64,000 nucleotides of DNA from Polytrichum commune. Lineage: Eukaryota > Streptophyta > Polytrichopsida > Polytrichales > Polytrichaceae. The stretch is from NCBI GenBank assembly GCA_950295325.1, contig OX485805.1, positions 57,810,758 to 57,874,757 of the forward strand, given 5' to 3'. Positions 29,584 through 57,611 of the stretch are shown in pieces. The translations under genes and the position numbers were made by a program. Numbering within the stretch: the first letter of the stretch is position 1; each line of letters starts with the position of its first letter. The notes below the pieces were generated by a model, which was given only the letters and a program-made list of their open reading frames with translations, made no database searches and was not told the origin of the DNA.

Positions 29584-29610
29584 ACACTATATTCGTTAAA
29601 TTGAGACTTT
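29584..29610 (+). repeat. Left terminal inverted repeat of element A
   Basis: 27 bp starting ACACTATATTCGTTAAATTG and ending GAGACTTT, matched exactly in inverse at 57585-57611 and directly at 62635-62661. Subterminal copies of GGTAGAGCACTC(C)AA follow at about 29738 and 29776 and resemble the motif near the right end. Confidence 0.85.
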
Positions 29611-31181
29611 CTCTAGTCTCAAATTAATATATGGATCAAACAACATGAAGATGCCTGAAACTATATTGTCAACAATCTCAAATATATTAAATGTTCTAAT
29701 ATCCCACACCTATGATGTGCGGACATAAGCACATATGGTAGAGCACTCAACACCAATTTCATCAACAAAAACACATTGGGTAGAGCACTCCAAACAAGTT
29801 TCACCCAAAAATATATATATAATGATTTCTATTATTAGCATGCTCCATAGAATATAGACATTGCAACATACAAAGTGCATGTAATAAATGCATATTTTTT
29901 CAATGGACAATTTAGTCCCAAACTTAATAAAAAAATGAACTTCACATTTGTATTGAAATATAATAAATGGATATTCATCCAACTCCAAAACAATATAGTA
30001 TTCGTAAGTTCTACCCAAACTCTGCCCCAATTTTGAAGAGCACACATATGAGTAATATATGTTCGTAGAATTACTGTTTACACTATAATCATGCTAACAC
30101 AATCCTACCAACTTCTCATTCAACGTGGGTTGCTTCTTCTGCGATCCGAGCAAGGTTGTCTTTTGCAAAAGTTATGTACTTTTGAGGGATGGACACTGAT
30201 CCACTATGATTTTTCCGTGGTTTCCATGCTATGAATATGGAATCTGTATCTACCCAAGATGGACCGTGCTCAGAATCCACCTTCCACCGAAAGTTAGGGT
30301 TTGTATCCCAGCCTGTATAATGCCGAATCACATCTTCATTCCTTGCCGTCGGTCGGTAGTACTCCACTTGTATTTGTCGAAAATGAGGGCTGGAAGTTAC
30401 AAAATTGGGTTTGGACAAAGCTCTTGCCACCCACACTGGCTTCACATATGTCTCGTCTCCAGGACGCAAAATGAGCATATATCCTTCATGACAATCCACT
30501 GCAATGCGGAAAGATGGTGGCGGACGACTACTAGCAGGCCCCACGTAATGGTCGTCCACATCAAACTCCTCTCGAACCTCTCCATTTCCCAAAAGACTAG
30601 CCTCTGAAGCTTGTACATCGACTCGTGTTTGTGGCCAAAATCCATGCCTCAAAGTATGAGGGCTATCTTGGTGGAGGTCTACCAAGGCGGCACGAACACG
30701 TGTCCAATAATGTATCCAACTCCCATAACGATGCCAACATGATCCGCCAACATCCGCTATCTTCAAACTCTCCCAATATTGTATGAAGCCTGATATACCT
30801 TTCAAAATATCCTCCAAATTCTTCATGGCTATTGGCTTACAAGGGCTAGGCTCCCCATCCGGTAACATGGTCTTCCCATCCGCATCCACGCGCCACACAA
30901 GAAGACCCTCCGGCGGGCTCCAGTCTTGTGTCGTGCACAACAACTTGTATTGCATGGCCGGGACACCATCGTCACGCATGTAGAACCGGAATTGTTGTGC
31001 CTTCGTATGCCCGATCAATCGGTGAGCTCCACTTCGAATATAAGGTTCTATAAATGCCTTGAAGTCTGGCACCTCCTCAATCATATGGGGGATGACGGGA
31101 ACGTTCTCCAAATCCATGTACGACTTCATCAATAATGGGATTGTAGGAAAATCCTCCTCCCGCAACTTCATGCTCCACCGC

Positions 31182-33026
31182 TGTGAGGCCAAACCCCCCA
31201 CCCTTAAGCGTCCGTAGTCCGAGTAGTGGGTTTGGGCTCACATTCCTCCGCGGTATTGGATTTGGACTTGGATGAGTCCATAGTGCAAGGTTCACCCTTC
31301 AAGTGGTCTTGGATTTAATTGGTGTCTCCATACCGTACATAAGCCTTTAAGTATTAAGAAATACTTATGTGACTTATGTCAATCTCTCCCTCGCACCTTT
31401 GGTCTTTGCTTTCTTTGTCTTGCCATCGCGAGAGTGCTCCACATTTTCCATTAAGTTGTGCACGTTGTTTATTTTTAAAGAGAGGATGCAAGTGTTAAAA
31501 AAAACACTATTCTCTATAGTCAATCTCAAATACATTTACTTGTGAAAGCCACACATAACACTAACTAGCATAATGTAACTAACTACTTGTCTATGAGCTA
31601 ATTAGGTAGGCTATCTACTAAGCTCCTTCATGAACCCATCTCTTTACTTTCTAATTACATAAACCTAGCTCCTTCATAAACCCAGCTCCTTCATAAACCC
31701 AGCTTCTTAGCTTCTAACTAAACAAACCCAGGTCCTTCATAAACCCAGCTCTTTACTTTCTAACTAAACAAACCCGGCTCCTTCATAAACCCAGCTCCTT
31801 CATGAACCCACAACTTTGTAGTTGTAATCCCCAACTACCTCACTAATTATTCAAGCCCTTAACTAATCTTCCTACCTAATTTCCCTAATTCTACTAACAA
31901 CCCCTTTCTAATCACACAATTCTTCTCTAATCCTAAAATCCTAAAATCCTAGAGAGGAGAGGGGGAGAGAGAATTTCCTAACTTCACTAAGACTAACTAA
32001 TCCACACAAGTATATTTTTGCACTCATCACAACATCAAGTGCTCAACTCTTAAACATGGAACTTGCAACCACGTGTATTCAAAACATGAACTTTAAGTAC
32101 CACAAATTGGAATCATGAATTAACTTTAAAATCCTTCACGTCAACACTAATTCTACCAAGAGGTCAAGCCCTCTTCAAGGCTAACAAGCCTTGGCTCTCA
32201 AACTAAAAACTAAGCACACACATGTGCTCCAATATGGCTTCCCACACCCACACTTATAACTCGTGGGGTGCCTTGGAGCACAAAGGAAAGAGAGGATGAG
32301 TGAGGGAAGAATGAGGGATTATATAGTAAGCTTGAGGGGGTGAGCACCCTCAAGGCTCACGATAAGCCCTTGAGATTTCCTCCTACTTAGTAGGCGCCAA
32401 TCCTATCTTCTAAGCCTTCCTCCCTCAAATGATCAACAAGGATCCTAATTCGAACATTTAACTAGCCTTGGTTTTCTACCTACCACACTTTACCAAACTT
32501 GGGATGCTTCAACCCAAACTTAGCCTCCTTCGCTTTCCGCCGCCATAACTTTCTCCCCTTACTTTCCCAAATCGTCGCTCACCACTTAATTCAAACCACG
32601 ATGCTTAACTCGTGATTTGATTGGTGCTTTGAGAATTTGCTTATCCTCCACCTTGCATTCTTCCTTGGGCCTTCCCCATTAAGTGGCCATGATGAGGTGG
32701 TCCACTTGTGCGCTCCATGTGATCCTCCATTCATCCCAATTCGAATGCACTTGCCTCTTGAGTCACTTTGGTTGTCTCCATCCATTTGTACTAGCCTACT
32801 CACTAACTACTCAATCCAAGTTCTCCTTACCTATCCTCATTCACTCAAATCCTTCCGAAGGTAAAAACACAATAACAACTCACATCCTAGCCTCTTACAA
32901 CATGGTACTTCTAAGACTAACATTTCACTCTTTTTATATTTTTGTGAAGTAACATGCTACTTCAAAGTGCATCAACTAACGTTTCAAGGGTCTAAAACTA
33001 AATGTGGGCACCCTTTTGGGCTCACA
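31182..33026 (-). repeat. 3' LTR of the Ty3-type element
   Basis: 1,845 bp, TGTGAG...CTCACA, same length and apparently the same sequence as the LTR at 40237-42081. It contains a short-unit tract around TTCATAAACCCAGCTC (about 31625-31810). The internal edge reads TAATTGG. Confidence 0.93.
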
Positions 33027-33087
33027 TAATTGGCGACCATCGGGGGATGAATCCAAACATCTCTTGCTCCAAGGGTAAGTTGCCTAG

Positions 33088-36000
33088 TCAAGCTCGGTAC
33101 TCCTTACATCTACTTCCCGATGTACGGGTAGGAAAGAGCTCACCATTCAACGTTTCCAATTGAATTGAATTATTAGGAAAGACCTCATAGACAAGGTAAG
33201 GTCCTAACCATACCGCATTGAATTTCGCCGGAAATTCAAGCTTTCGTGCGTCTTGAATCATGACCATCATTCCCGGTGTTAGGGCCCTTCTCTTATGTCG
33301 TTTGTCGAAAGTAATCTTTCTCCTTCTTTGGATTGCCTCAATATGTTGAGCCGCCATTCTCCTCCCTTCGTCAAGTGCTTCCAAATCGGTTAGTCGATTT
33401 CGTAAGGATTGACTTTCGGTAAGTCTCGTACTCACGGCCACCCTAAGTGACTCGACTTCATATTCGATTGGTAGTGTCGCTTCAAGACCATAGACTAAGG
33501 AAAATGGTGTAGCACGCGTAGTTACCTTATAGGTTGTACGGTATGCCCAAAGTGCCGCCGTTAGTTTCGTATCCCAATCCCGCTTCGAGTCTATAACCGT
33601 CTTGCGTAGTATACTCACCAAAATTCCGTTAACCCTTTCCGTTTGTCCATTGGTTTGTGGGTGGTAGGGAGTAGTCTTCCGGTGATCAATTTTAAATTTC
33701 TCTGTCATCTCTCGAATCAAGTCATTCAAAAAGTGAGTACCCCTATCGCTTACTAGGATCTTCGGCACCCCGAACCGCGAAATTATGTTTTCGTACATAA
33801 ATGTTGCCGCGTGTTCCGCCGTGTCGGTCTTCACCGCTTTGGCTTCCGCCCACTTGGTGAGGTACTCGGTTGCCACCACAATATATTTCATTCCTTTTTA
33901 AGATTGGGGATGGACCTCACCCACATAGTCGATGCCCCATTTTTCGAAAGGAATTAAGGGTAATGATACATGTAAAGGCATCTCCATTCTAAGGTCGTCT
34001 CGGGCATACCGTTGGCAAGCGTCGCATTTCCTTACATAGTCATGGGCGTCCTTAAATAGTGTAGGCCAAAAGTAGCCCGCTCTAAGTATTTTTTGCCCGG
34101 TGAGTTGACCCGAGAAGTGACCGCCGCAAGCGCTATCGTGGCAAGCGATTAAAATCGCTTCAACCTCCGTTTTTGACACGCATCGTCGTAAAATACCATC
34201 GGACCCCCTTCTAAACAACCTATGGCCCACTACAACAAATTGCCTACTATTTACCCTCACCTTCCTTCTCTCTTCTTTTGTCCACTCTTTGGGCAACTTG
34301 TGGGTTGTTAGAAATTCCACTATGCCCGCATACCACTCCGGTGTAGAAGTGACCACAAAGAGGCTATCATCTACTAACATATCATTTACCGGATTTTTTC
34401 CTATCTCCTCCGACAACCTAGACAAGTGGTCCGCTTGTAAATGCATACGACCCGGTTTATATTCCACCGTGTAGTCGAATTCTTCTAATAACAAAACCCA
34501 CCTAGCTAACCTACCACTTAACTCCGCCTTGTTAATTAGATACTTGATAGCCATGTGGTCAACAAAAAATACAACCGGGTTGCACATGAGGTAATGCCTA
34601 AACTTTTTAACGGAAAACACCATGGCTAGGCACTCCCTCTCCGTTGTAGAGTAGTTTCTTTCGGCGGGGGTCAATTGCTTACTCGCATAAGCTATAGGTT
34701 GATCCTTCTCTTTTTCTCCCGTTGCTTGACAAAGTGCACTCCCTATTGCCACATTACTAGCATCACAATAGACGTGAAAAGGTTTACCCCAATTGGGTGG
34801 TATCAACACCGGATAGGTGCTCAACCTATCCCGCAATTCCTCAAAGGCTTTTTGACAAGCATCCGTCCACTCGAATTTGACATCCTTTTTTAGCAAATGG
34901 GTAATGGGCACCGCTATCTTTGAAAAATTAGGAATAAGTTCCCGGTACCATCCCACATGTCCTAACAACTTAGAGATCCCCTTGGAATTGGTTGGAGTTG
35001 CCAAGTCGCTTATGGCCGCAATCTTATCCGGATCGGGTTCTCTACCTTTCTCACTAACAACATAACCCAACAACACTCCCTTATTCACTCCCAAAAATGT
35101 CTTATCCGGGTTCAATGCTAACCTCATCTTCCTACACCTAACCAATGCCTCCCTAACACAATGTAGGTGATCATCCACATTACTTTGTGTGCTAAAATCG
35201 TCCACAAAGACGGTCATGGATTTGAACAACAAGTCGGTGAAGATATACATTACTAATCGTTGGAAAGTAGCCGGGGCATTACATAACCCAAATGGCATCA
35301 CTACCCACACAAAAGTACCCCAAGGTGTAGTAAAAGCCGTTTTATGGATATCTTGGAGGGCTATGGAAATTTGATTATAACCCGCATACCCATCCATAAA
35401 GGTATATCGCGAATGACCTCCAACCTCCTCAAGCAACAAGGTGATAAAAGGTAAGGGGAAGTGATCCTTTTGTGTGCACGAATTCAATTTCCTATAGTCG
35501 ACACAAACCCTTAATTTCCCATTTTTTTTCTTTACTAAGACCATAGGAGAAACCCAATCCGTGATTTCCACCGGCTTGATAAACCCGGCCTTCAATAACC
35601 TTTCCAATTCCGCTTTCACCAACAATTGCAATTGAGGATTCATCCTCCTCTCCTTTTGTCTAATTGGCCTCGCCCCCGGAATTAAAGGAATCCGGTGCTC
35701 TACCATTTCCCTAGGAATTCCCTTAAGCTCATCGTAGGACCATGCAAAAGTATCACTAAACTCATCCACTAAATTGCTATACTCCCTAACCTTTTTCTCC
35801 CCCAATTTGGAGCCCATCTTCATTTGTCGGGTTTTTCCATTCTTTAATTTCACATCCACGTACCGCCAATCCGCTTCCGACACATGTGTTTGTTCCTCTT
35901 TGTTCCGATACCAATCGGAAGGCACATTGGGGTAATCTTTCACATCTTGACCTACAACTATTCCCGTAGACATGGTCTTGAAATGTAAAGGCTCCTCCAA

Positions 36001-39000
36001 TTTCGATGACTCAATAATCACATCCTCCTCTTGAGTCCCATCTACATGAATTAAACTAACCTCACCCTCTTCCACGTCATCTATCCAAGGTGTTAACCCA
36101 CCGCTAACCCACTCTTCCTCGGTGAGCACCTCACATGGCTCCAACAATGAGCCCTCTCCTAAACTAACACTAGGAAATTCACTCCCTAAGCCTACTTGGT
36201 GAAATGTAACCATTACATCAACCTCGGACTCGGGGTACTCCCTTAGCCATTGGGCATAATCCCCATTATCCCCATAATTGTAAAAATTAGGACCTAGACT
36301 TCCCGAGCCCGAATCTATAACAACCCTTTGACCTTCGGGATGGACGACTCCCACCAATGCCTTGCCAATCTCATTCTCGTTTAAGTCATCAATTTCCTTC
36401 TCCAATGGCAAATACATCTCCTTCTCCATCCATCCTTCTAATGAACCAATGGACACTATGACCCTATTACCCTCCGGACCATAAGTGATGGATGGTTTAG
36501 GTCCACCCCAATTGACCATAGCATTCGCCATCCGCAACCAAGGCCTACCTAGCAAAATGGGGAAGGTGTCCTTGTTGGAGTGCATTTTAATGACATGGAA
36601 GGTGACCAAGTACTCCTCACCTCCCGTAGTCATTCTACAATCCTTGATCATCCCCAAAGGCGTAGTCGAACTTTGATTTGCCATATTTATGACCAAAGGT
36701 GAAGGCCCCGTGAGTCCAAGTCCCAATTTTTTCATAGTATCCTCCGGTAGTATATTTAGACTACTCCCTCCGTCGACTAGCACATTAGGAACCACCTTAT
36801 CTACTATAACAACTTCTATTTCTATAGCTTTCACGTGTCTTCCACCTTGTGATTGGATCCTAGCGGCTATTTTAGCTTTCACCTTCCTCATCCTCTTGTG
36901 TACCGGCATTCCCTCCTTTAATGTTTTCCTTGCCGTGGGTGAAATTTCCAATAGTTGGCCGAAAGTAATATCCGCCTTGAGTGTACTAAGGTCCGCCCAC
37001 AAGTCGTACCCGGTAGATCTTTCCACCTTAGAATTACCCACTACGTCGAATTCGTCTACGGGAACCCCCGGTCCTTCCCATTCACCCACATCGCTGTTAT
37101 CCAAGTCATGTACCGCATTAGTCCTCTCCCTATCTTGTAAAATTATATTTTCCCTCTCCACATCCTTAGTAGCTCTTCTAGCTACCCTATCCAACTCGGA
37201 GAGATTAATCTCTTCATCCGAAGAGTAATTTCCTTGCTCTCCTATTCCTACCTCCAACGGGGCATCCCCTCTCCTAGCCCTAGTAGTTACCGCTAGTGCA
37301 GGTGCTTCTTCAACCACACCCTTACCCTTCACTAACTCATATGTAATAGCATTGGTGTGAGGAGGCCATTGACTTTGCTCCTCTCCAATTCTCGTTGGGA
37401 GAGGAAGCATGTCATCACATGTGGCCTCCAACACTCCATCCATGAACCTAACATCTTGGGAGTTAGATGGTCCCGGATCCGTTGGAGGCGCTTGTCTCCC
37501 GTTACTACCATTAGGTGGAACTCCTTGTCTATTTTGTATTGGAATGTAACCGGTTGTAGTTTGCAAGCCCGCCGGTGGATGAAAAGTTTGCCTAGCATTA
37601 CTATGGTCATAGTATAAGTTAGGTGGCCTAAGTTCATTGGCCGGTACTCCTTGTGGCCTAGCACCTCGCATATTATCCCTTGCTTGTTGTTGTGGATTAG
37701 CCACCGGGTAAGGGACATTAATTATTTTGTCCGGTTGTCGACACGTATCCGAGGGATGACTTCCTCCACAATTGCTACAATTAAACTCTTGACCTTCGGA
37801 CCAACATTGTCCTTGAGCGTGCCACCTTCCACAAAAGGGATGAAATTCCTTCTTCTCTAAATTTTGGCCACCTTGCCCTCTAGGTTGTGGTCCTCTATTG
37901 CTTCCATTTCCATAGTGAGGTGGCGCTTGACCTCGTTGATTTTGTTGAGGTGGGTTACCGTTTCCTCTTTGGTCACGGTTTTGTCCACTTCTACAAAATT
38001 GACGCGTGTGGCCCGGTTGGCCACATTGGACACACCATAATCCGGAAGAATGCCTACCCGACTCAACCGGGGGTGGAGGCCCCGGTTGTTGACTCCGGAT
38101 CATTAATGACATTTGATCCGTGAGGCTTTGCATTTGTTTTATCATAGCCTCTTGGAATCCTAGTTGGCTAGCACCTAGTCTTCTCTCAACCTCCTCCAAG
38201 TGTGGATCCGTTCTAGGGGCCGGTAGTGCCAAAAGAGGTGCCGGTTCCCTAACCGCTAAAGGTCGGGGACCGGTGTCCACAATGGCATATGGAATTTGGT
38301 TCTCATACTTAGCGGGTTCTACCGCTACCACCCTAGGGAGTATGGGAATGAATTGTGGGATCAATTCATCCTCCCTTCTCCATAGCCTTTCGTGATCTTT
38401 ATCCAAGTTTTCAATATCTCTAGCCGCACGCTTGGCATCCGCCAAGGTCAAGGGATTCCTTTCTAGAACACCCCTAATAGTTCCGGACTTAAAAAACCCT
38501 TGAATGAAAAATTGCTTTAGCGTGTCGTCGTTGAGCATGGTACCCACAAATCTAGTGCACACTAAATCAAACCTCCTAATGTAAGCCGAAATTTCTTCCT
38601 CCCTTCCTTGCTTCAATGACGACAATGCCCTTAATGCGGTACTTTGACCCACTTCCGGCCTAAATTCGTTAAGAAACTCCCTTTGTAATTGTTCCCATCC
38701 CCTAAAATGTCCCTCGGCATGATCCCGATACCATTCATAGGCTTCCCCCTCTAGAGTGGTAGGAAACCACACTAACCAATAACCCGGGTCGGTTATGAGG
38801 AAGCTAGCCAACCGTTCGATATACCGTTCCATGTGCCGAGAGGGGTCCTCATCCTTGGTCCCATAAAATTTAGGGAGATGAGATGGCATATCCATCGCCG
38901 CTAAATTTTGTGGAACCACAATTGGTAGGCCTCTTGGCCTAACCAATGGGTCTATTGGAGGTATAGGAGGTATGGGCGGAATTGGGGGTATGGGTGGTGG

Positions 39001-39327
39001 ATCCATCCCCCGTTCCTCGGCCATGGTGACCGGTGAACTATTCAACAATCCCCTATCAACTTCTACCGGGAATTCTTCTCTAAGTGTGTAATTTTCCGAA
39101 GAAGTTTCACCACTCAATTTGAAGGGAGTGATCTCCTCTTCAAGTTGAGCTCCAAGTTCTAAGGTGTCTAGAATTGACCTAGTCCTAGGTTCGACGTTCA
39201 AACAACTCTCTATTCTAACATTATCTTGTTCTAATCTATCACTGATTTTAGAGGACCGCCTCTTTCGAGTAGATTTCTCTAGTCCTACTATCAAACTTGG
39301 TTTTTGTGAGCGAATCCTACCTTGCAT
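33088..39327 (-). pseudogene. Gag-Pol polyprotein of the Ty3-type element, one nonsense codon
   Basis: One frame of 1,809 codons (39327-33898) is followed after a single TAA by 267 more codons in the same frame (33891-33088). Gag has a capsid-like region and the CCHC knuckle CVQCGQPGHTRQFC (about residue 434). The protease has VDGGSSLNILP (about residue 850). RT has MPFGLCNAPATFQR and FVDDF (about residues 1340-1375), and RNase H has VYCDASNVAIGSAL (about 1520). Integrase has the HHCC finger ACHDSACGGHF...CDACQ (about 1725-1775) and the core Asp in WGIDYVGEV. Past the stop come VSDRGTHF and NGQTERVNG, completing the D,D,E triad. The TAA between GEVHPQS and KGMKY is the only defect seen, so the copy is nearly intact. 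Confidence 0.93.
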
Positions 39328-40214
39328 TCCATAAGAATCGATCGACCCTCACTTGACCACACATAATCCTAGCAATTCCCCTCTTAATATTTTCACTTGT
39401 CTTGGTGTGGTTATAATTTTTTTAGGAGGTGAGGAAAAGAACCTGCAAGCCCACTTAGGTGAAAGAATCCCAATAGGGGATAGGCATGTTCATGTTAATT
39501 TTTTGGTTAAGTCGGAGCATCACCTCCGCACCTTCCCGCAAATTAACACTCACCACAATACCGATTGTGAGGGGGTGACCTTCCGAGTAGATTATGTTAA
39601 AAGTCGAGGCTTCACCCTTCAACTTCTCACACCATCCACAATTCGGGAATTACCCTCTACAACGGATAACAACAATCACGAGTACAAAAGGCATTCCTTA
39701 ATTAGTTAATGAGTTCACTTTGAAGAAATAAACATACCTTGAGCAATCGCATCCCCCTGTGAGTTAGCACTCCCCTCAATCGTGACTCAATGTAACAACA
39801 CCATAAACTTTGTGAAATATTAATTTAATCTAGAGCATGAAATGACAACTCCCAAAACTTTGAGACTCACCCCGAGGTGAGTGTCAAAGTTCAATGTCCT
39901 AAGGTGAATTTACCCTCTAATGTTTTAATGAGCTACTCGGTTATAGGTTCCTTTTAAGTTCTTAGCAAATCCCCAAAAAGGTTGAGGACGTACCTTCGCC
40001 GCGCTCCTTCCTCAAAAATGAATTTGCGTAATTGACAATGCAATTCATTCCAAGGAATAGTTGAAATACAATGAATTCAAATGTAACCCAAAGAGAGAAT
40101 ACTTACCGAGTTTCGGGTGCTCCTTCCCTTCTCTCAAGTTTGTGTCTCCAATTTTTCCTAGTTGCCTCCAAGTCTCCTAGTCGCCTCCAAGTCTTGTAAC
40201 TACATTCCGCTTCG

Positions 40215-40232
40215 CTCCCGGCAGACGCACCA
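40215..40232 (-). promoter_or_regulatory. Primer binding site of the LTR retrotransposon
   Basis: On the minus strand TGGTGCGTCTGCCGGGAG starts four bases after the 5' LTR. Its complement ends CCA like a mature tRNA 3' end and, from memory, matches plant tRNA-Gly(UCC). A tRNA database comparison would settle the species of tRNA. Confidence 0.8.
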
Positions 40233-40236
40233 ATTA

Positions 40237-42081
40237 TGTGAGGCCAAACCCCCCACCCTTAAGCGTCCGTAGTCCGAGTAGTGGGTTTGGGCTCACATTC
40301 CTCCGCGGTATTGGATTTGGACTTGGATGAGTCCATAGTGCAAGGTTCACCCTTCAAGTGGTCTTGGATTTAATTGGTGTCTCCATACCGTACATAAGCC
40401 TTTAAGTATTAAGAAATACTTATGTGACTTATGTCAATCTCTCCCTCGCACCTTTGGTCTTTGCTTTCTTTGTCTTGCCATCGCGAGAGTGCTCCACATT
40501 TTCCATTAAGTTGTGCACGTTGTTTATTTTTAAAGAGAGGATGCAAGTGTTAAAAAAAACACTATTCTCTATAGTCAATCTCAAATACATTTACTTGTGA
40601 AAGCCACACATAACACTAACTAGCATAATGTAACTAACTACTTGTCTATGAGCTAATTAGGTAGGCTATCTACTAAGCTCCTTCATGAACCCATCTCTTT
40701 ACTTTCTAATTACATAAACCTAGCTCCTTCATAAACCCAGCTCCTTCATAAACCCAGCTTCTTAGCTTCTAACTAAACAAACCCAGGTCCTTCATAAACC
40801 CAGCTCTTTACTTTCTAACTAAACAAACCCGGCTCCTTCATAAACCCAGCTCCTTCATGAACCCACAACTTTGTAGTTGTAATCCCCAACTACCTCACTA
40901 ATTATTCAAGCCCTTAACTAATCTTCCTACCTAATTTCCCTAATTCTACTAACAACCCCTTTCTAATCACACAATTCTTCTCTAATCCTAAAATCCTAAA
41001 ATCCTAGAGAGGAGAGGGGGAGAGAGAATTTCCTAACTTCACTAAGACTAACTAATCCACACAAGTATATTTTTGCACTCATCACAACATCAAGTGCTCA
41101 ACTCTTAAACATGGAACTTGCAACCACGTGTATTCAAAACATGAACTTTAAGTACCACAAATTGGAATCATGAATTAACTTTAAAATCCTTCACGTCAAC
41201 ACTAATTCTACCAAGAGGTCAAGCCCTCTTCAAGGCTAACAAGCCTTGGCTCTCAAACTAAAAACTAAGCACACACATGTGCTCCAATATGGCTTCCCAC
41301 ACCCACACTTATAACTCGTGGGGTGCCTTGGAGCACAAAGGAAAGAGAGGATGAGTGAGGGAAGAATGAGGGATTATATAGTAAGCTTGAGGGGGTGAGC
41401 ACCCTCAAGGCTCACGATAAGCCCTTGAGATTTCCTCCTACTTAGTAGGCGCCAATCCTATCTTCTAAGCCTTCCTCCCTCAAATGATCAACAAGGATCC
41501 TAATTCGAACATTTAACTAGCCTTGGTTTTCTACCTACCACACTTTACCAAACTTGGGATGCTTCAACCCAAACTTAGCCTCCTTCGCTTTCCGCCGCCA
41601 TAACTTTCTCCCCTTACTTTCCCAAATCGTCGCTCACCACTTAATTCAAACCACGATGCTTAACTCGTGATTTGATTGGTGCTTTGAGAATTTGCTTATC
41701 CTCCACCTTGCATTCTTCCTTGGGCCTTCCCCATTAAGTGGCCATGATGAGGTGGTCCACTTGTGCGCTCCATGTGATCCTCCATTCATCCCAATTCGAA
41801 TGCACTTGCCTCTTGAGTCACTTTGGTTGTCTCCATCCATTTGTACTAGCCTACTCACTAACTACTCAATCCAAGTTCTCCTTACCTATCCTCATTCACT
41901 CAAATCCTTCCGAAGGTAAAAACACAATAACAACTCACATCCTAGCCTCTTACAACATGGTACTTCTAAGACTAACATTTCACTCTTTTTATATTTTTGT
42001 GAAGTAACATGCTACTTCAAAGTGCATCAACTAACGTTTCAAGGGTCTAAAACTAAATGTGGGCACCCTTTTGGGCTCACA
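40237..42081 (-). repeat. 5' LTR of the Ty3-type element
   Basis: 1,845 bp matching the left LTR. It contains a minus-strand TATA-like motif (41374-41381, complement of TTATATAG) that could start the genomic RNA. It is flanked on its outer side by ACCGC and the coding sequence of the DUF7869 gene. Confidence 0.93.
41374..41381 (-). promoter_or_regulatory. TATA-like box in the 5' LTR
   Basis: CTATATAA on the minus strand lies in an otherwise pyrimidine-biased part of the LTR. The same motif occurs in the 3' LTR at 32319-32326. Role inferred from position. Confidence 0.4.
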
Positions 42082-45659: not shown

Positions 45660-45735
45660 TCCTTGGCAGGAATTGAACCTGGCTAAGCCCTTCACCACGT
45701 TTGAAGGCCAAGGATTAACCAACTCCTTTTTAAAG
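45660..45735 (-). repeat. tRNA-like segment, probable SINE head
   Basis: On the minus strand a tRNA-like T arm, CCAGGTTCAATTCCTG, includes a near-consensus B box (GGTTCAATTCC). It is preceded by CCTTCA...TGAAGG, which can form an anticodon-like stem with a 7-base loop, and by GTTGGTTAATCC in the D-arm position. No full acceptor stem is evident, so it is more likely a tRNA-derived SINE head or decayed tRNA than a working gene. Confidence 0.35.
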
Positions 45736-46823: not shown

Positions 46824-46864
46824 ACCCTAAACCCTAAACCCTACACCCTACACCCTACACCCTC
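46824..46864. repeat. Interstitial telomere-like repeats
   Basis: About two CCCTAAA units followed by about three CCCTACA units. CCCTAAA is the complement of the plant telomere repeat TTTAGGG. The tract is short and internal to element A, so it is not a chromosome end. Confidence 0.7.
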
Positions 46865-47623
46865 GTAGTTGTTCAGGGTTGCTTCCCACGGGTAGGTCAC
46901 TTAGTGCATTTTAAAAACGACGTGCGGCATAATATAGAGAGGATTGAAATCATTTGAAATAAAAATTATAAAGGAATTCCAAATAATGAAGGGGCCATTA
47001 AATGTAGACAATCCCATTATAAGTAAGTTAGATGGACATAAAATGTGGGCCATTATTTTTTTGTAAAATTAATATAGGGGCTGAAGATAAGGTTCCTAGA
47101 AGGTATGTTTAGTATAATGTTTGCTATGGTCTCCTATGTGTTTTCTTCATAACTTTGTTTGCAATGATATTATTGTTTGCACCCTTCTTTGTTTCCATGG
47201 TTTCCCTTAACAGGAAGTAGATTAGCTTTTATTACTTAAAAGGAATATAGAGTACAAAAAATTGCAGTGACTTGGACAATATAAGTAATGGAAGGGTGCA
47301 AACAAATGGGCCATTTTTGAAATTCAAGTAATTATAGGGAGGCTTTAATTCAACCCTTGAAGGTAAATAGCCCCAAAACAAAAAACCCTGAGCCGCACGT
47401 GGTGCACAAAAATGCCTTAGAGTGACCTACCCGTGTGGCTTCCATATAGAACACCATCTACTGTAATTTGTGCCTCATTTCCTAATAAGATATGTTGTTT
47501 AATATATGTGGAGGGATCATCCAACAACAAAGTGATTGCTTAAATGGCTTCATATAATGTTGAACTCCACATATTAGTATTTGATAGCTTCATATTTGTA
47601 TACATGGTGCTTCTCTCATTTAC

Positions 47624-47790
47624 TATCACTATATTCAATATTTGTAGACTTTATCTTGTCTCAACTAAATATATGAACAACAACAACATTGTCTAATGTT
47701 TGGGTCGTCCTACCTAAACCATCTTCATATGAGTTCTTAATTGGGTTCTTCAGCAAAAACACCCGCTTCAATATATTTGTATCTCATAAA
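47624..47790. repeat. Terminus-like segment inside element A
   Basis: CACTATATTC at 47629, then GACTTT, TCTCAA and AAATATATG, follow the order of the left end of element A (29585-29640). Slightly further, CCTACCTAAACCATC, ATATGAGTT and GGGTTCTT resemble the right subterminal region (57430-57490). It looks like a decayed element end or a nested relative. Confidence 0.5.
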
Positions 47791-48263
47791 TATGTAAACT
47801 TGTAAATAAGTATGTTAATGTTCCATCATGCTATAAATCAAACAACATCTTTGTTGCTTTTCGCAAACAACAATGATATTAAGTTGTCAACACTTAATAT
47901 TGCATAATTCCATATTATAATGAATGACACTACATAAACTTGTATAATTAGATTTAGTTCAATGGTATGTGTTAACGGATCCATCGTAGGCTATAGCATT
48001 GTCCTTTACCAACAACCTTCATAGATAATTACAATATATAACTCGAAACCATTCATTGTGTAAATGGTTACCATAGTTATATTATTCCATTATGTAATTG
48101 CCTACGAGGATTGCAATATAATTATTAAATACTCCTCTTAGTCTAGTATCTATCATTCTCGATTCATGCATATGTGTAGATTACTAAAATTACAAAACCA
48201 ATACAGTTTCATTATTTGATATTAGCAAATCCATCGGGGGACCATTAAATTAAAAACCTTAGG

Positions 48264-48271
48264 CTATAAAG
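48264..48271 (+). promoter_or_regulatory. TATA box of the ParB/MTase/FCP1-like gene
   Basis: CTATAAAG lies upstream of a CT-rich stretch (48470-48690) typical of plant leaders. The first recognised coding exon begins only at 50114, so a long leader with at least one intron ending in the CAG at 50111-50113 is inferred. Confidence 0.4.
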
Positions 48272-49329
48272 GTTTTTTAGTATCCTCAAGGATGGTATGG
48301 GATAGGTGGCTAAAGGATACCCACCTGCGAGGCCTATCGACCGTCGATGGGCCTGGGGCTCTCCAATGGCTCAGATTGTGTATTCGTTTGGGCCATGGAG
48401 CGCCCCGTGACACGTGGCGGCCATGAGCCGAACGGACACGAAAGGCGCCGGCCCGAATGGGTCCCGCCCTTGAGTGACCTTCCCCCTTTCACTCTCCCCT
48501 CCGCACTTTCTCCTTCTCTCTCCTCCGCTCCAAGCTCCTCCTCCTTTGTACGTTCCTCATACTTTCTGGAGGCGCCGCCTCCTCCCTTGCATTCTCTCTC
48601 TCCTTGTCGAACTCGCATTCCCTCTCTCCTTCCCTCTTCATCATTATCTCATTCTCTCTTTCACTCCTCCTCTTCTTTTGATCTATTTTGTTGTTCATTG
48701 AGTGCGCATTGACCGAGTTCTGAGTGTAGTATGAGTTTAGGGTTTGTTTTTGTATTAAAGTCTATACATTTTAGCCATTTCAGAACGTCTTTGTTGTTTT
48801 GGAGTGTGAGTGTTGTTTCAAAGTGGTTGTGTCAGTTCCTCCTGGTCTTAGAAACATTCATGTGTGAGTGTAGAGTGATTTCGGAATTAGAATGATTGTT
48901 CGAAAATCAGGATGCATGTGTGGCCTTCAGATAGCTTCTTTGTTCATGTTTGTAAACACTTGTTACATTCAGAGTGAATGTTTGTGAGGGATTGTTTAAT
49001 TCTGAGTGAATGTTTGTGAAAGCTTCTTCAATTCAGAGTGAATGTTTGTGAGGCGTTCTTAGTTTTCTGATATCCAATCCTTTCTAGAATCAGCTTCCAA
49101 GACTAGCTTGTTAGAACTGCTTCCAACAGCAGCTTGTTGTGTAGTTTGCAAAGCAAGGTGATTTCTTCAACTTCTTTATGTGTGTCAATTTCTTTAGAGT
49201 TTCGCAGCATCTACAATGCATAAGCATTGTATATGCTGCGTAAACACATTATAAAGGTCTCTGGAATCAAAAGTGTTTCGAGAGACGACCCAAACTTCAG
49301 TTTGAAACCCTAAAACACTAAACTCTGCA

Positions 49330-50090
49330 GCTGGTTTGGGTAGAGCGACCCAAACTCTCCAGCTGGTTTGGATCGTTCGACCCAAACTCTAAAGATGGTT
49401 TGGGTCGTTCGACCCAAACTAGCAGATGCTCTGGGTCGTGGGCGCCAATCCATCTGCAGAGTTTGGGTCGCTCGACCCAAACCATAAGCATTGTTTGGGT
49501 CTAGGGTTTAGCCAAACTCCGCACCAAATGTTTATTTATAATTAATTTAATCATCATCTTGGGTGAATATCTAACCCTATCGACCCAATCCATCTGCAGA
49601 GTTTGGGTCGCTCGACCCAAACTAGCACATGCTTTGGGTCGCTCGACCCAATCCATCTGCAGAGTTTGGGTCGTTCGACCCAAACAGCGCATGAAATGGT
49701 AATTCATAATTTAGGTAATCATCATCTTGGGTATGATCTAAGGCCATAGCCGATCATTCCATACCGCTACAAAGTTTGGGTCGAACGACCCAAACTTTGC
49801 GTAAATTTTTACTGCTTACGAACAATACTTACACTTATAAACAACAACTCAAACACCCAAGCAATAATGAAATGACCCACAACTAGAACAGTAGCTCGTG
49901 ATGATTGTTGTATCCATGAACTTAAAGATTGGTTTTCGTAGCCAAATAATATATTATTCATTAGCCATTGTAGGCACAGGTTTGGGTCGTTCGACCCAAA
50001 CCTGTGAAAAGTAACCCCATATATAAATGTTACTAAACCCAGACATAAGCCTATATGATTTGAAAGAGTTTGGGTCGCCCGACCAAAACT
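49330..50090. repeat. Palindrome cluster in the leader/intron before the fusion gene
   Basis: About ten copies of TTTGGGTCGNNCGACCCAAA lie here at irregular spacing. The two central bases vary (CT, TT, AA) and some arm mismatches occur, as at 49334 and 50069. The last copy starts 46 bp before the first coding exon and is followed by a CTAAC branch-like site and TTGCAG. Confidence 0.88.
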
Positions 50091-50113
50091 AACATATGTA
50101 TTTCTACTTGCAG

Positions 50114-53100
50114 ATGCCCCCCAAGAAAAGACCTGGAGAACGATGGTTCAAGCCGGCACCAGACGCGATCTGGCAGGAGCACGAAACTCCTAAAAACCAA
50201 TCCTACGTAGCAAAAGAAGACCTTGTAATTGCATGGTCCTTTCTTGTAGTAAAGGCAGCTCAATTCAAAATCCTCCTTGTTTTGAAGGTTGGCACGGAGG
50301 AGCAACACACATGGGATGCTTTGACGGGATGGGAGGTGGCATCAGTTCATGCTCTAGGAGAGCACGTTGACGTCATCCTGGAAAACTCTTCTCTGGAAAA
50401 TGTGCACATGTTCATGCATGAGCAAGCCGAGCCATTCGATCCGGTATACGTGAAGGAATCCTGCGCTGAGCCAGACATTGTTAAACCGGATACAATCTTC
50501 ATAGATGCGATCATTTCAAACACGAAGGTTGCAACCAGGTTCACTAAACTTAAGCAGGCAATCAACGCAATAAACAAGACCCAGCAAAGCAAGTCAAAAT
50601 CTCAACAAGCTGTGAGGCGCAAGGCGACTGCTGAAGAGGGCGCAGGGTCGTCAAGACCTCAAACAGTGAGGAAGCCCCGACCGGTTCCAGCTGACTCGAG
50701 GAGAACAACACCTACGGCAACTCCTGCTGATAGTGAAACACCGACGCCATCACAAAGCCGGCAGACGACACCATCTAAGAGGCCGAGAGAGTCAGTATCT
50801 GCCATGACAGATGAGCTTGTTTCACCGGAGCTACGTATGCCCAAGCCCGGGGAAGGAGTGGAGCCATCGGAGATCCAGAAAATACTCAACAATTTCGACA
50901 CCAAGTGTTTATATTGTTTTTTCATGGGCAGAGAATTCAAGTTTGATGTCAACATCGCACAATGCCACCTAGCGCCACCAGAGAAGTGCGTTCGGGCAAA
51001 GGAAGATGCGTATGTTGATTGGTTAATCGCCCAGATGGTGAGCGACCAGTTTAAACATGATAGGCAGACTATTGTTGTCATGCCTCAGGGACACAAAAGA
51101 ATGCCTACACCGGATATGTGGCCTTCTATAGAGAAAGGCGATTTTTGGCTGATTGACGGTCAGCACAGTGTTGAAGCTTCAAAGAAACTTCAACTGATGA
51201 CGGAGTGGAATGATCCTAATGGTCTAAAGGAAAAATTGAAGGTATGGAAGGCATTGGTCGTGTGGTCGGACGACGAAACCCGGCTGAGCGATATCTCCCG
51301 CTATTTCAACATGAATAACAAGAAGCGGGCATATCAAGCTTCTTGGATTAGGAACATCATGGCATCGCGGGATGTGTGGGAGTTCTACGGCCGGCCTCCC
51401 AAGGAAAGGGAGAATGCAAAAGACAAGAATTCAAAGTGGGAGGTGAGCATTGTTTCTCAAACAGAGTTTGGGTCGCTCGACCCAAATTTTGTGTTTCTTC
51501 ATACAGTTTGGGTCGCTCGACCCAAACTTTGGGTTTCTTCATACAGTTTGGGTCGCTCGACCCAAACTTTGCGTTTCTTCATACAGTTTGGGTCGCTCGA
51601 CCCAAACCTTGTGTTTCTTCATACAGTTTGGGTCGCTCGACCCAAACCTTGTGTTTTAGTTTGTGTTTGTCTACGCAGTTTGTTGTTCATCATTTTTCTT
51701 CTTTGTTTGGAAACAACATATTGAGAATTAACACGCATTCTATGCTCTTGTGCAGCTTTTCAAATACCAAATGATAAACAAGTTCTCCTCAATTGACAAT
51801 TCAAGTCACAAGCAAAAGAAGTACAATGAGCTAAGAGGAGAGATCTACTTGATTACATCATCCGACATGGTTTGGCAGAAGTGGAAGACAGTGTTTGAGA
51901 AACACGAGACAGGGGATCTCATGGATCCTGACACATGCAACCTCTTCAACTCGTCCTCTCGATTCAAGGCGATGAAGCCTCTCATGAGAGAATTCTTTAG
52001 AAGTCTGCAGGGTCTTTCGGAGGCGGAAATGGGGAAGGCGGCAACGCACATCTTGCACAACAACCCGACCCCTAAGAGATTTTGGGTGTACCCCAAAATA
52101 GTCTTCACCAAGCCGAAATCCTTTGTTCCTTCATGCTACACAATGAAGGAATGGGCGGAGAATAGGAAGAAGAAAACAACGATCGTCCAGGAGCTGCAGA
52201 AGCTAATCCCGGAAAAGAACATTTTTGTCGATGACGAGGTGAACGAGGTGAACTGGAGAGCGTTCAAGGCTGAATACAACTTCACCAGTGCATCCATGGC
52301 AGCTCTGATCAGGGAGGCAGGAGAAGACTTCCTAAAGTCAAAACTGGTGAAGGGTGGGAAGAACCTAGCTCTTCCAGAACACTCGACGCGTGCCTTCTCA
52401 AACTTTATAAAGGAGAAGAAGATTGTAAGTTTTGAGGGGAATGCGCATTTCAACCTTGTCGCTTTTGACCCTATTAAAATCCAGGGATGGCCCGGCCTTG
52501 ATTCCAGGAAAGAAATACGAGTAAGAGCAGCGGACCGGTTCCCCTTTGGTATAGTAGACTTCCGGAGCATTCCTGGGAGTACGTTTGAGGGCACAATGGG
52601 TACACCCTTCTACGAGCCCTTCATGTCGAAGTTCGTGGAGTATGCAAGCCCTAAGCTTAGGGAGGTCGATATGTGGCTGTGGATAGTAGAGGATAGGAGA
52701 GCAGAGCAGGTGTATGAAATTGTGAGGAAATTGCAGCCTGAGTATGCGGTGTCTAAGTCTCACTACATTGCTGCACCGGTGGAGGGGGTGTACACGACAC
52801 TAAAGGACAAGAAAACCAAAGTCATGAATTTGTTGTGCTTGTACTTTGTGTTCAAAGCAACCTTGCTGAAGGTGGAGAACCACCCCATAACCCGGATGCA
52901 GAAACTATTCCAAGTTCCAGAAGGCCAGGGCGCAAGTAAGTCCCTCTACGACGAGGCAAAATATGCCATATACCATTCGGACGAGTTGCGGATGGAATTC
53001 TATCTCCGAATAATGAGGGCCTTGACGAGAAGAGGGGACTGTATATTCAACGTCTTCGGCGGCACCAAGCCCGTCTTCGCTGGCATGGTAAGCTCCTTAC

Positions 53101-56099
53101 CATAATTGTTTTCATAGTTTGGGTCGAGCGACCCAAACTAACACCGATGCTAGTTTGGGTCGCTCGACCCAAACTAACACTGATGCTAGTTTGGGTCGCT
53201 CGACCCAAACTATAACCTTTGCAATTGATATTAGGTCTTGTATGTACTTCCCCTTTTCGGTGGAATCACATGTTATGCCATATAATAACATCTGGTGGGA
53301 TTTCTGCAGATGCTGGGGCTGAACGTGTACAGCTATGTAGACCTTAATGACATCCAATTCTACAAGGCCCAAAAATCATTGGCGAAGAAGATGGATATAC
53401 TAGACTGGATCCCTAGGAGCTACGCCGAGGAGACTGTTGAAGGGGGTGAGAGCCCGCTGGATATGGCGAGGCGTGTCAACCCTGAAGAATTGGCCATAAA
53501 GGTTCCAGTTGCTGTACCAGAGCCTCTGGTCCAAGTGCATCCAGGCACATCCTCTCGGCGACCGCGTGACGAGGAGGGGGAGGATGAGGAGGTGGAAGAG
53601 GAGGAAGAAGAGGCTAAAGTGGAGGGCGAGGTCGAAGAAGGGGGAACAGGCTTCACTCAGGAATCTGAAGCCCCTCAACGAAAGAAGGCAATGCGGGTAG
53701 CAACTCCACAAAGTAAGTTGGTGCCCGTCCTGACGGTTGATGATGCCCGCGACATGTACTCCAGGGATGCGACTGCCGCGTTCAGGGAGAGGAGGAAACT
53801 AAAAGGCAAGAAACTCTATGGCGACTATGCCATCGAGGAGACAATTGCCATTAGCAGCGAAGACGAGGACGACATGGAGCTCGCGAAACGGCTCAGGTCG
53901 GACCCTCCCTCTCCAGGTGCCTTCGCAGGGATGGTGAAGGTGAAGCCGGAAGTCCTCACCGTGCAAGAAGCCAACGAGAAGATGTTAAGGGACGAAGAAC
54001 AACGCGTCCGCTTGCAAAAGGCCGCTGCTGAAGAACCCTCAGTGCGGAACGAAGTGGCAGAGCTAAGGGCTCTCTTATTGGAGCAAGAGCGACTACGGGC
54101 ATTGGCGCAACCTCCAACTAGTGCGGACTTGATCACGCAAGTGATTCGAGGCATGTGGGTGCAGGGTTCGGTGGTGGCTCCCCCGGGCTCATTTCCACAC
54201 TTGCCCCCCGGCTTCCCTCCCCAGAACATTCCTCCGCAGCCCGTGCCGCAATCCTCCTTCAGCTTTCAGCACATGGTTCCCCCCCACGTCCGTCCGTATC
54301 CGCCGGTTCAACAAGCGGATGACCCCAATATATGGCGCCTTCCCGGGTCTTCTAGACCTGTGACCCCCCCACCACTTCGGCCGCCCCTGGTGATCCCCCC
54401 GCCCCATCAGCAGGACGACCCCCACATGTTTGGGTCGTCCGACCCAAACCCGCCCCCCCCTTACAGTGCAACAAGGCCAATCTCATGATGCACGAGAGTT
54501 TGGGTCGGCCGACCCAAACCCCGTTACCGCTCAGTCTTCAATGGACCAGCATGGGTCTGAAAGAGACACACCCATGCCTGATGTTGAAGGTCCTCGAGGG
54601 CCTGGTGATACCTCTACTCCTATCCCAATCGATGAACCTATGCATGATGCACATGCGGAGGTTGGGTTAGGAGAAGGTCCTGACACTGAGCGCTTGCAGG
54701 AGAGGGGTGCTGACATCGTCGGAGAAGGCGGTGGCAAGAGAGAACGACAAGCGGAGGCGGTGGAGGCTTCCATGGCGTCCAGGCATGACCAGGGAGAGGT
54801 AATACACTGAGACCTCCTCAGTTTGGGTCGCTCGACCCAAACTCCTGGTCTATTGTCTTGTTGCCGTGGTCGTGTCCCCCCTAGCTAGGAGGAACTGCCC
54901 CCACCCCGTCCATCCGCTCTCGCATCCCTTCAGCCCCCCCCCCGACGATCACTAACGTCGCCCGTCCCACGATTTTACTCGAACTTGGAGGCGTGCACAC
55001 AATTTTGTAGATGTTGAATTAGGATAGTTTCAACGGATCGTTCAACGCGGCTTCGCACCCCTAGGCATTTTGTACATAGAGCATTGCAAACAATAAAATT
55101 ATTATTTTGTGCCCTTATGTTTGTTTTCGTGTTCAAATGTATATTTTTTCCTCTTGCCCCCTCTTGCATTTGTATGGCCGCCTATGCATAGTGGTTCTTG
55201 TATTTTTCACAAAAAATATTGTATTCACTTTAAGTGGACATAGCATGACATAGTCTTCCCCCGCCTTATGTCGCTCGTCTCCACAGGGATCGGAGCATAG
55301 CGTCGCGGCTCCCCGCCGGGCCTCTCCAAGAAGCGAGGAAGGTAGCGCGATGGTCCCCCCCATTTTACCCGTTCCACCTTTGCCGCCTAAGACCCGGTTC
55401 CTGGTGTTAGACCTCAACGGGGTCCTCGTCCAATGCGTTCATTGCCCAAGGACCCCCACGGTGGCCTTTTGCAAACCCGAGGACGCGAATTACGACGGGC
55501 CGCCCACGTTCATAAAGAGCAAGCTAGTTCACCTCTGCCCGTGGCTTCGGACCTTCCTCCAGATCGCCCAACAACGATGGTGGGTGGTCGTGTGGAGCTC
55601 CATGAAGGCCGAGAACACCAATGCAGTCGTGGAGTTCATCTTCAAGGGCATCGAGCCCCCCTGCATGGTCCTAGCACAGGAAGCCTGTAGAATATTGTAC
55701 ACACCGGACGGCAAAGTCGTCAAAAAACCAAACAACCCCGCTTCCCCCCAATACCTCAAGGTCTTGAAGCCCATTTTTTGGGACCAGCGTCCGTCATTGA
55801 TAGGTGTCCCCTACGACGTCCGTCCCACCCGGGAGAACACGCTCATGGTGGACGACAGTGCCGCAAAGAACATGTTGAACCCGACGGCCAACTTAATAGT
55901 TTGCCCTACGTGGACGGTCGAGAAGGTCCGGGACCGATTTTTGTTAGACCTTAGTAAATACCTCCAGGCGCTCAGGGGAAGCGGACTACCTGTAAACAAT
56001 TTTGTTAGGAATAATCCGATAGGCGAGAGATACTTGGATCCACGAGACTATTTGTACAGAGAGTTGTTCTCTCACGCGAAATTTAACAAGCTCATTTGA
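50114..56099 (+). CDS. Multi-domain protein of element A: ParB/DGQHR-like, DNA MTase-like and FCP1/NIF phosphatase-like
   Basis: Exons 50114-51442, 51756-53087, 53310-54798 and 55287-56099 (stop TGA) have GT-AG introns and matching phase 0. A one-base frame change in a C8 run near 54453-54460 in exon 3 must be bridged, so the long fusion is provisional; the exon 3 frame otherwise stops at 54488. Exon 1 starts MPPKKRPGERWF, has a basic Ser/Thr/Pro linker and WLIDGQHSVEASKKL (about 51147), like the ParB/DGQHR core. Exons 2-3 join as GDCIFNVFGGTKPVFAGMML then GLNVYSYVDLND, resembling motif I of N6/N4 DNA methyltransferases, but I see no DPPY motif. An acidic, then Pro-rich linker follows. Exon 4 has HAD motifs FLVLDLNGVLV (DxN not DxD), VVVWSSM, and TLMVDDSAAKN, ending in a plant FCP1-like tail. 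No function is proven. Confidence 0.6.
51466..51650. repeat. Five palindromes in a 40-bp tandem array within intron 1
   Basis: Starts at 51467, 51507, 51547, 51587 and 51627: TTTGGGTCGCTCGACCCAAA followed by about 20 bp ending CTTCATACAG. Each 40-bp unit begins GT and ends CAG. The array is inside the 313-bp intron 51443-51755 of the fusion gene, and frames stay open through it by chance. Confidence 0.93.
53117..53210. repeat. Three palindromes at 36-bp spacing within intron 2
   Basis: Copies begin at 53117, 53153 and 53189, in a 222-bp GT-AG intron (53088-53309). The central dinucleotide is AG in the first and CT in the others, meaning the two orientations of the same asymmetric core. Confidence 0.93.
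54428..54842. repeat. Three further palindromes, two of them inside coding sequence
   Basis: Copies at about 54428 and 54497 (centres TC and GC) are within exon 3, where they are read as FGSSDPNP and FGSADPNP. A third at 54821 lies just inside intron 3. The exonic copies are followed by sequences ending in TTACAG and GCTCAG. Confidence 0.85.
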
Positions 56100-56103
56100 G
56101 GCA

Positions 56104-56107
<4 letters not shown>

Positions 56108-56145: not shown

Positions 56146-56148
<3 letters not shown>

Positions 56149-56254
56149 CGCCCGCCCACTTTGTGTAATATATGCTTCATATGTATCTTGATTTTCACGC
56201 GCTCTAGCAAACCCTCTTCCTTTGGGTTTTGTTTCGTTTCCTTTTTTGCGCCAG

Positions 56255-57064
56255 CGTTTGGAGCCCTCGATTGACATCGTCAGCGAGTCAGACTTGGGGA
56301 GCTTCTTCTACGAGACCGTTTACGACGCCGCGTCAACCATTGACTACTCCAAGGAGCCTATTGACGCCGGCGTCGTCGATAGCCCCCCACCCAAGCAAAT
56401 CTTACGGCGATCTCCGTCCCCGTCGCCGCTCAAGGGCATAAATCGCAAATGCGTCCGGACATCCCCCTCTCGGCCCGGCGGAAGTATTACACCTCAACGG
56501 CGGCTGCGGATGGACGCACGGCCAACGAAGAGTGAAACCCTTCCTATTCCTTTGCGGGACGCCTTGCCCCTCCTTGCCAACTCCGACGGGAACGCCCCCG
56601 GTGACAAGGTGAACCCCCCCCCCCCCTTCTCTAAAACATGGTTAACCGCGCATTACAATCATTTTGCACTTAAAAAATGATCGTGTGACACGTTTGGGTC
56701 TTCCTCCCTAAACTAACACATGTGGTCTTGCAATGACGCGTTGCAGGTTGCTCCCACCCGTAAACCTATGCGGTCTAGTGCGTCCATCGAGTTCGAGCGT
56801 ATGTACGCCATGACCAGAAATGCGAGACAATCCACTTCATCGTATTCGAATTCTTCGACGTATATTTCGGGCGGCCGACGGACTCCAAAATGTCTTATGG
56901 ATGGCGGTCACCCCAAGAATGGCTATAGTCGCGGGGCGGAGATTTTCAGGAATGTTGAAGCAATGCGAGCAAAAGAAGCCGCAGCAAAAGAAAAAGAGGC
57001 AAAAGAAAAAGAGGCAAAAGAAAAAAAAGCAAAAGAAAAAGAGGCAATCTCCGAGGCTAGATAG
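56255..57064 (+). CDS. Two conserved terminal exons of element A, protein of unknown function
   Basis: Exons 56255-56608 and 56747-57064 (stop TAG) are joined in phase 0 by a GT-AG intron. The first opens, after an acceptor CCAG, with RLEPSIDIVSESDLGSFFYE and continues with SPSPLKGINRKCVRTSPSRP; no ATG precedes it in frame. The second is Ser/Arg-rich, then (KEKEA)n, ending EAISEAR. The same two exons occur in the inverted copy at 63230-63969 with few amino-acid changes, so they look protein-coding. They might be spliced to the upstream gene (a phase-0 GTAAAC donor at 55992 would skip its stop) or belong to another transcript. I do not recognise a domain. Confidence 0.55.
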
Positions 57065-57584
57065 GCCATAGTAGGCGTAGGGTTTTGGGCCATAGGCAAC
57101 ATCATTTTGGGTCGCACTATCCAATGTATGTGTGGTGTTAGCATGCTATGCATTTTACATGCCATACTTTGTATGTTTTTTTTGCAATAATATAAGTGTC
57201 ACATGATTTCCCCTTCAATATGGTCCAAGGTTTGGATTGCCCTAACTAAACCATCACAAATATGAGTTTGGAATATTTTGTATGTTATATTATATTGGTT
57301 CACATAGTTCCCCTTCAATATGGTCTAAGGGTTTGGAGTGCCCTACCTAAAACATATTCATACAAGATCTCATATTTTGTGTGCGATAATATGAATGTTT
57401 TAAGATTTCCCCTTCAATTTGGCCTAAGGTTTGGATTGCGCATCCTAAACAATCCCAAATATGAGTTATTAATGGGGTTCTTGTTCTAAATACCCGACAC
57501 AAAGTGTTCGCATCTTACAACTTTCTCCAATATGTGTTCCATTTATCCTTGTTCTTATTTATGTGAATGTCTCAAAATGCCCAA
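57065..57584. repeat. Right subterminal region of element A
   Basis: No gene. The region has at least three repeats of GGTTTGGATTGCCCTA(A/C)CTAAAC (about 57235, 57330 and 57425), which look like decayed versions of the internal palindrome. TTTTGGGTCGCACTATCCAA occurs near 57105. The region is matched in inverse order at 62662-63170. Confidence 0.7.
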
Positions 57585-57611
57585 AAAGTCTCAATTTAAC
57601 GAATATAGTGT
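57585..57611 (-). repeat. Right terminal inverted repeat of element A
   Basis: The exact inverse of 29584-29610. Directly outside is TTATTGTG, LINE sequence. TTA here and TTA at 29581-29583 may be the target duplication. Confidence 0.85.

Follow-up and report, generated by a model that had tools for sequence, protein, structure and literature searches.

Introduction

In the VANDAL/VANC system of Arabidopsis, a protein encoded by the transposable element binds arrays of a motif that lie in introns and upstream of genes, and these arrays lose methylation (PMC5735166; this and the papers below are cited from excerpts of their texts). Fungal DNA transposons can carry TET/JBP proteins, DNA-modification proteins that are thought to aid escape from silencing (PMC12730594). 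CACTA/EnSpm transposons have CAC..GTG termini and a target site duplication (TSD) of 3 bp (PMC12730594), and the transposases of the CMCT clade (CACTA/Mirage/Chapaev/Transib), which also takes in Plavaka, share a C(2)C and an H(3-4)H motif, both placed after the second D and before the last catalytic acid (PMC12730594, PMC4079192). Lanisha, a superfamily proposed in 2020 in Repbase Reports, is said to have both of these motifs (PMC12730594). The DNA transposons of P. patens are described as Mariner-like (PMC7466625). Here we report on a DNA transposon with terminal inverted repeats (TIRs) from Polytrichum commune, located at positions 29583-57612 of a stretch of 64,000 nucleotides (hereafter the window; contig OX485805.1, positions 57,810,758 to 57,874,757, assembly GCA_950295325.1). 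We think it probable that it is a two-gene cut-and-paste transposon, with a DUF7869 protein as its DDD transposase and a VANC-like second protein that counters silencing via palindromes. Our search of the literature for DUF7869 found no paper naming this domain, and among the best papers listed by a search for methyltransferase-like proteins carried by moss transposons, none was relevant by title and abstract.

Borders of the element and its insertion site

The ends of the element form a perfect 28-bp inverted repeat, beginning AACACTATATTCG, between 29583-29610 (plus strand) and 57585-57612 (minus strand), within wider inverted arms (29580-29610 and 57585-57615) of 97% identity. Comparison of the ends and flanks showed the tetranucleotide TATT directly outside both of them (29579-29582 and 57613-57616), i.e. 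a 4-bp target duplication. The element sits within sequences of a long interspersed nuclear element (LINE). The left flank has a match to RNase H (29104-29580, Pfam E 5e-5, just short of the curated cutoff), and the right flank has two RVT_1 matches (61010-61498, E 1.4e-6, and 59891-60127, E 0.003, neither of which reaches the curated cutoff); all these pieces are on the minus strand. When the two flanks are spliced together, a single open frame runs through the junction. The two pieces of the RVT_1 match are separated by G-rich tandem repeats (GGGGCGGACGG, 60517-60978).

An earlier note on this DNA, made from the sequence alone, had described a 28-kb element with identical 27-bp inverted termini, inserted between two complementary halves of a LINE. 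The termini are indeed identical, with one base more than noted, and the target duplication together with the frame of the joined flanks bears out the insertion. The note placed RNase H on the left, and the endonuclease and reverse transcriptase (RT) on the right. RNase H and RT were found where expected, both with sub-cutoff scores, but Pfam detected no endonuclease in the right-flank open reading frame (ORF) at 61814-62773. The 28-kb length did not hold for a single unit, as 10.9 kb of it belong to a nested long terminal repeat (LTR) retrotransposon of 10,900 bp (31182-42081, minus strand), which codes for gag, RT, RNase H and integrase domains and is bordered on both sides by a 5-bp duplication, ACCGC. 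This LTR retrotransposon is foreign to the DNA transposon, having inserted later within its DUF7869 gene. Without it, the window element measures about 17.1 kb and thus resembles the other copies in size.

Copies across the genome

We searched the genome (408 Mb, 64 contigs) for the ends and the genes of the element, and the best 40 to 48 candidates of each search were considered, so that the copy numbers are lower bounds. The left end occurs at no fewer than 40 places, plus one 27-base match, and the right end also at 40 or more. Along its full length of 117 bp, the left end is 100% identical in 25 of the 40 left-end places listed, the window copy included. A right end on the same strand was found within 120 kb for 33 of those 40 left ends. 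The pairs span 16.6-19.2 kb in 22 cases and 20-61 kb in the rest, and by the same measure the window copy spans 28,028 bases. The TIRs start with AACAC in the 33 pairs, with AATAC in two left ends.

Exact 4-bp target duplications flank 27 of the 33 pairs, versus 32 of 1056 cross-pairs (3%) made of ends from different copies. Among the six pairs that have no exact duplication, one is off by a single base, another lies directly against a further terminus, a third has two candidates for its right end, two have swapped duplications, and one (C3:13122045) has no explanation. The swapped pairs are the copies at C4:4509973-4526609 and C4:5122683-5139956, which are in opposite orientations and bordered by CTTG/TAGT and TAGT/CTTG, respectively. 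Such a swap is a mark of recombination, which indicates that the two copies recombined, probably with inversion of the approximately 0.6 Mb between them. The left end of the copy at C5:2493488 lies one base from the terminus of another element (TAGTGTT, A, AACACTA).

Five copies that we compared are about 94-99.9% identical in collinear blocks, with lower values (about 78-97%) where the units of tandem arrays are shifted; the lengths of the arrays vary. The target sites are AT-rich, and no strong consensus beyond this was found across the insertion sites fetched. The 500-bp flanks of the 33 pairs gave no match to the stretches that adjoin the window element other than the window's own, and two right flanks of other pairs match elsewhere in the window (1-20000). 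Fixed-length duplications and inverted ends at many sites are those of class II TIR (cut-and-paste) transposons. The family is a recently active DNA transposon with many near-identical copies. The same LINE stretch of the window contains another member of this family, in the opposite orientation. The right end of this second element starts at 62634, next to the flank GTAT, and it is 93% identical over 1.39 kb; it runs past the end of the window, 62634-64000 being the visible part.

Two divergent genes

The window element harbours two divergently transcribed genes, whose exon joins are predictions based on GT-AG sites and homology. The leftward gene (30116-44085, minus strand) codes for a DUF7869 protein, with exon 1 at 44085-42642 and exon 2 made of 42507-42082 and 31176-30116, on either side of the LTR retrotransposon and with the 5-bp duplication counted once. 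In the window copy, this gene is broken by the LTR insertion, and its intron has a CAA acceptor in place of CAG. Both genes are open in the copy at C6:11767328-11784596, where the DUF7869 gene has one intron and codes for 976 residues. DUF7869 (E 5.3e-44) is the sole Pfam match of this intact protein at E <= 1. It has at least 116 relatives among the best 7,996 candidates scored, and those that are named come from Ceratodon and Physcomitrium. Its predicted structure contains an RNase H-like core with invariant acids, and its structural neighbours are integrases and transposases; a search for sequence relatives among solved structures listed a single match, with an E value of 0.14. The ratio of non-synonymous to synonymous substitutions (dN/dS) between two subfamilies of the element is 0.17. 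Together, the predicted core with its acids, the structural neighbours and the low dN/dS value indicate that the DUF7869 protein is likely the transposase.

The rightward gene (50114-56099, plus strand) has four predicted exons, 50114-51442, 51756-53087, 53310-54798 and 55287-56099. It codes for 1658 residues in the intact C6 copy, and its exon 3 is out of frame in the window copy. Exon 2 is predicted to code for a helical part and an amino-methyltransferase fold (N6A / N4C / MT-A70). Active amino-methyltransferases have the catalytic motif [DNS]PP[WYFH]. At the corresponding position, 54 of the 57 aligned proteins have DFR in place of DPPW/Y, one has DWR and another DLR, and the last is not covered; one sequence (P0119) is alone among the 57 in having the motif elsewhere. 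An ordinary active methyltransferase was rejected on these grounds. The sole name given to the 69 relatives of exon 2 is 'hypothetical protein'. Exon 4 codes for an FCP1/NIF-like phosphatase domain (PF03031, E 1.2e-13, 51.5 bits versus a cutoff of 21.8). The phosphatase motif of such domains is usually DxDx[T/V]; here it reads DLNGV.

The genes had been taken for cargo-like in the earlier note, which guessed at ParB, methyltransferase and FCP1 similarities for the rightward one. The last two find support in the predicted structure of exon 2 and in Pfam, respectively. In the ParB-like region there is a DGQH motif only (WLIDGQHS), where the pLDDT of the model is mostly under 50, and no ParB profile matched in Pfam, even at E values up to 10, or in NCBIfam. 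The gene content was rightly called unfamiliar, since DUF7869 and NIF are the only Pfam matches above cutoff across both genes. As for the DUF7869 protein, a transposase is more likely than cargo.

To look at the gene layout genome-wide, we listed 48 places for the DUF7869 gene and 47 for the second gene, and paired them within 25 kb. The second gene was found near the DUF7869 gene at 16 or more of the 48 places, and the two genes are divergent in 16 out of 16 pairs. The gap between them has a median of 8.75 kb and measures 8.46-9.27 kb in 14 pairs. Paired termini around similar genes do occur elsewhere; the earlier note had held that their absence would count against the element. One of the 16 pairs, L085 (C6:40309125-40325851), belongs to subfamily B, and therefore the divergent layout recurs in the second subfamily. 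Both TIRs of L085 are perfect, with ends 16.7 kb apart and mismatched flanks (GGTA / CAAT). Subfamily B was read from two copies, L085 and L086.

Palindrome arrays

The element contains a 20-bp palindrome, TTTGGGTCG-NN-CGACCCAAA. With up to two mismatches, it occurs 34 times in the window, versus 0 expected from 100 shuffles, and all occurrences fall within 44302-54841. Twelve form an array upstream of the DUF7869 gene (44302-44950), one with two mismatches lies between the two genes (47699-47718), and ten are upstream of the rightward gene (49335-50088). Within the latter gene, five follow one another with a period of 40 in intron 1 (51467-51646), three are in intron 2 (53118-53209), and in the region 54429-54841 exon 3 holds two and intron 3 a single one. 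Only degenerate versions were found close to the ends, namely two on the left (29775 and 30000, within 29775-30019; 5 and 6 mismatches), which are weak and near the shuffle level, and five on the right (56693, 57106, 57231, 57332 and 57430, within 56693-57449; 3-5 mismatches).

The intact C6 copy has 36 palindromes at the same threshold, 34 of them non-coding, two in exon 3 and none in the DUF7869 exons. The two exon 3 palindromes of the window (54429-54518) are both perfect, and the intact copy translates them as FGSSDPNP and FGSADPNP. In three relatives, the same introns, when read through, yield the peptides VWVxRPK and SLGRxTQT, which at the protein level are what the palindrome would encode. 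Between 18 and 33 perfect palindromes were counted per element in five elements.

Genome-wide, inside or outside elements, exact 21-base palindrome matches number 9,459 in the forward and 9,477 in the reverse direction, and a reversed control gave 0. The first 100 places listed group into seven clusters at a linkage of 7 kb. Three of these clusters span 10.0-10.3 kb, similar to the palindrome span of one element (10.2-10.7 kb), and four are shorter. Subfamily B has the same arms with other spacers, and its centres are mostly GT, AC and AT, versus CT, AG and TT; AG is common to both subfamilies. This combination of constant arms and changing spacers points to the palindrome as a bound site.

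Other repeats were noted in the window. A short, telomere-like ACCCTAC array is found in the interior of the element between the two genes (46824-46863). Outside the element, 30-bp tandem repeats resembling ATGTGTCATGC are present at 7274-7786 and, as the reverse complement, at 13165-13705, some 5-6 kb apart.

Proposed mechanism and alternatives

In the mechanism that we favour, the DUF7869 protein would act as a DDD transposase, with D430 or D433, D555 and D597 (P0001 numbering) as the putative catalytic acids of its RNase H-like core. The anatomy of the element suggests that this protein attaches to the TIRs, cuts the element out and joins it to AT-rich target sites with a stagger of 4 bp. 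The second protein is the natural candidate for a reader of the palindromes, in that a methyltransferase fold binds DNA and catalysis seems to have been lost. With less assurance, we propose that its fold devoid of DPPW/Y might bind the palindromes of its own element without methylating them, and that the bound protein, perhaps together with the phosphatase-like tail, might keep promoters and introns unsilenced in the manner of VANC. More tentatively still, the element could represent an undescribed superfamily, defined by a DUF7869 transposase, 28-bp AACAC ends and 4-bp duplications, which would combine counter-silencing by a repurposed methyltransferase with thousands of element-borne palindromes whose preferred centres differ between subfamilies.

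The palindromes might instead be bound by the transposase itself for synapsis or self-regulation, the second protein being an auxiliary transposition factor. TNPA of En/Spm binds subterminal motifs, and the degenerate palindromes near the right end, and more weakly those near the left end, would fit such a role. Nevertheless, the palindromes with two mismatches or fewer lie in the interior of the element, within introns or 5' regions, the end-proximal ones are degenerate, and the first palindrome of the intact copy is 3.8 kb away from its left end. We therefore regard this possibility as rather unlikely. The second gene might also be a passenger of host or bacterial origin that plays no part in transposition, given that NIF/FCP1 and amino-methyltransferase are cellular folds. 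Its constant divergent position next to the DUF7869 gene, with a narrow range of distances, and the nameless relatives of its exon 2 make this quite improbable. Accidental pairing of inverted repeats and an error of assembly can both practically be discounted in view of the 33 pairs, 27 of which have exact duplications, and of the open LINE frame.

Another explanation is that the element is a divergent member of the CMCT clade, for instance a Lanisha element, in whose DUF7869 transposase the zinc motifs have been lost or moved. The AACAC...GTGTT ends correspond to the CAC...GTG of Chapaev and EnSpm plus two outer bases, and the 4-bp duplications compare with 3-4 bp in Chapaev and 2-5 bp across the clade, as given in excerpts. 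Moreover, a CxxC motif is kept in 50 of 51 aligned DUF7869 proteins, though ahead of the first acid. In the part that follows the second D, up to residue 640, C(2)C was found in none of the 51 proteins and H(3-4)H in eight, counts that depend on the predicted positions of the acids, and Pfam yields DUF7869 only. On balance, we consider CMCT membership unlikely. Of the known names, Lanisha is the likeliest to apply to the element. Its proposers reportedly study Ceratodon, a moss, and it may come from the same group of plants. Membership in Lanisha is nevertheless disfavoured, since the CMCT motifs reported for it in excerpts are not found here. Given the missing CMCT signature, and with Lanisha set apart by its description only, there is a real chance that the element belongs to a new superfamily.

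If the mechanism that we favour is correct, DUF7869, so far a domain without a known function, would gain one, and a name could be given to a lineage of plant DNA transposons whose proteins public sources currently enter as 'DUF7869 domain-containing' or as hypothetical. The element would also be a second, unrelated example from plants, after VANDAL/VANC, of a transposon that marks itself by a system of motifs. The origin of such systems would then become testable, with constant arms, subfamily-specific centres and spacers, and a candidate reader of recognizable fold.

Comparison with known systems

CACTA-type elements are large, with subterminal repeats, and the window element is like them in this. 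It also resembles CACTA/EnSpm and Chapaev in its CAC...GTG just inside the ends and in its short TSD (excerpts of PMC12730594 and PMC4079192). A plain CACTA/EnSpm element was rejected because AA precedes CAC and the TSD is 4 bp; the three bases adjoining the TIRs match in 0 of the 33 pairs. Like the fungal TET/JBP transposons, this DNA transposon carries a protein related to DNA modification, but the transposases differ, and a dioxygenase there contrasts with a motif-less methyltransferase-like fold here (excerpts of PMC12730594). The predicted fold of exon 2 is similar to those of MTA1, METTL3 and the beta-class N6-adenine DNA methyltransferases, from which it differs by its DFR in place of DPPW/Y.

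VANDAL/MULE membership was rejected in the absence of a MULE transposase from the Pfam results. The target duplication of MULEs is about 9 bp. The other differences from VANDAL/VANC are a 9-bp directional motif there, according to excerpts, versus a 20-bp palindrome here, and the combination of a DUF7869 transposase, a 4-bp TSD and a candidate reader with an amino-methyltransferase fold, for which binding and demethylation are suggested by likeness. As in VANC systems, a short motif is arrayed in non-coding parts of its own element. Like VANDAL21/Hiun, a MULE, with its VANC protein, the element is a multi-gene transposon with tandem arrays of short motifs in introns and upstream regions, the motif number varies among copies and the motif differs between related families (excerpts of PMC5735166 and PMC10398659).

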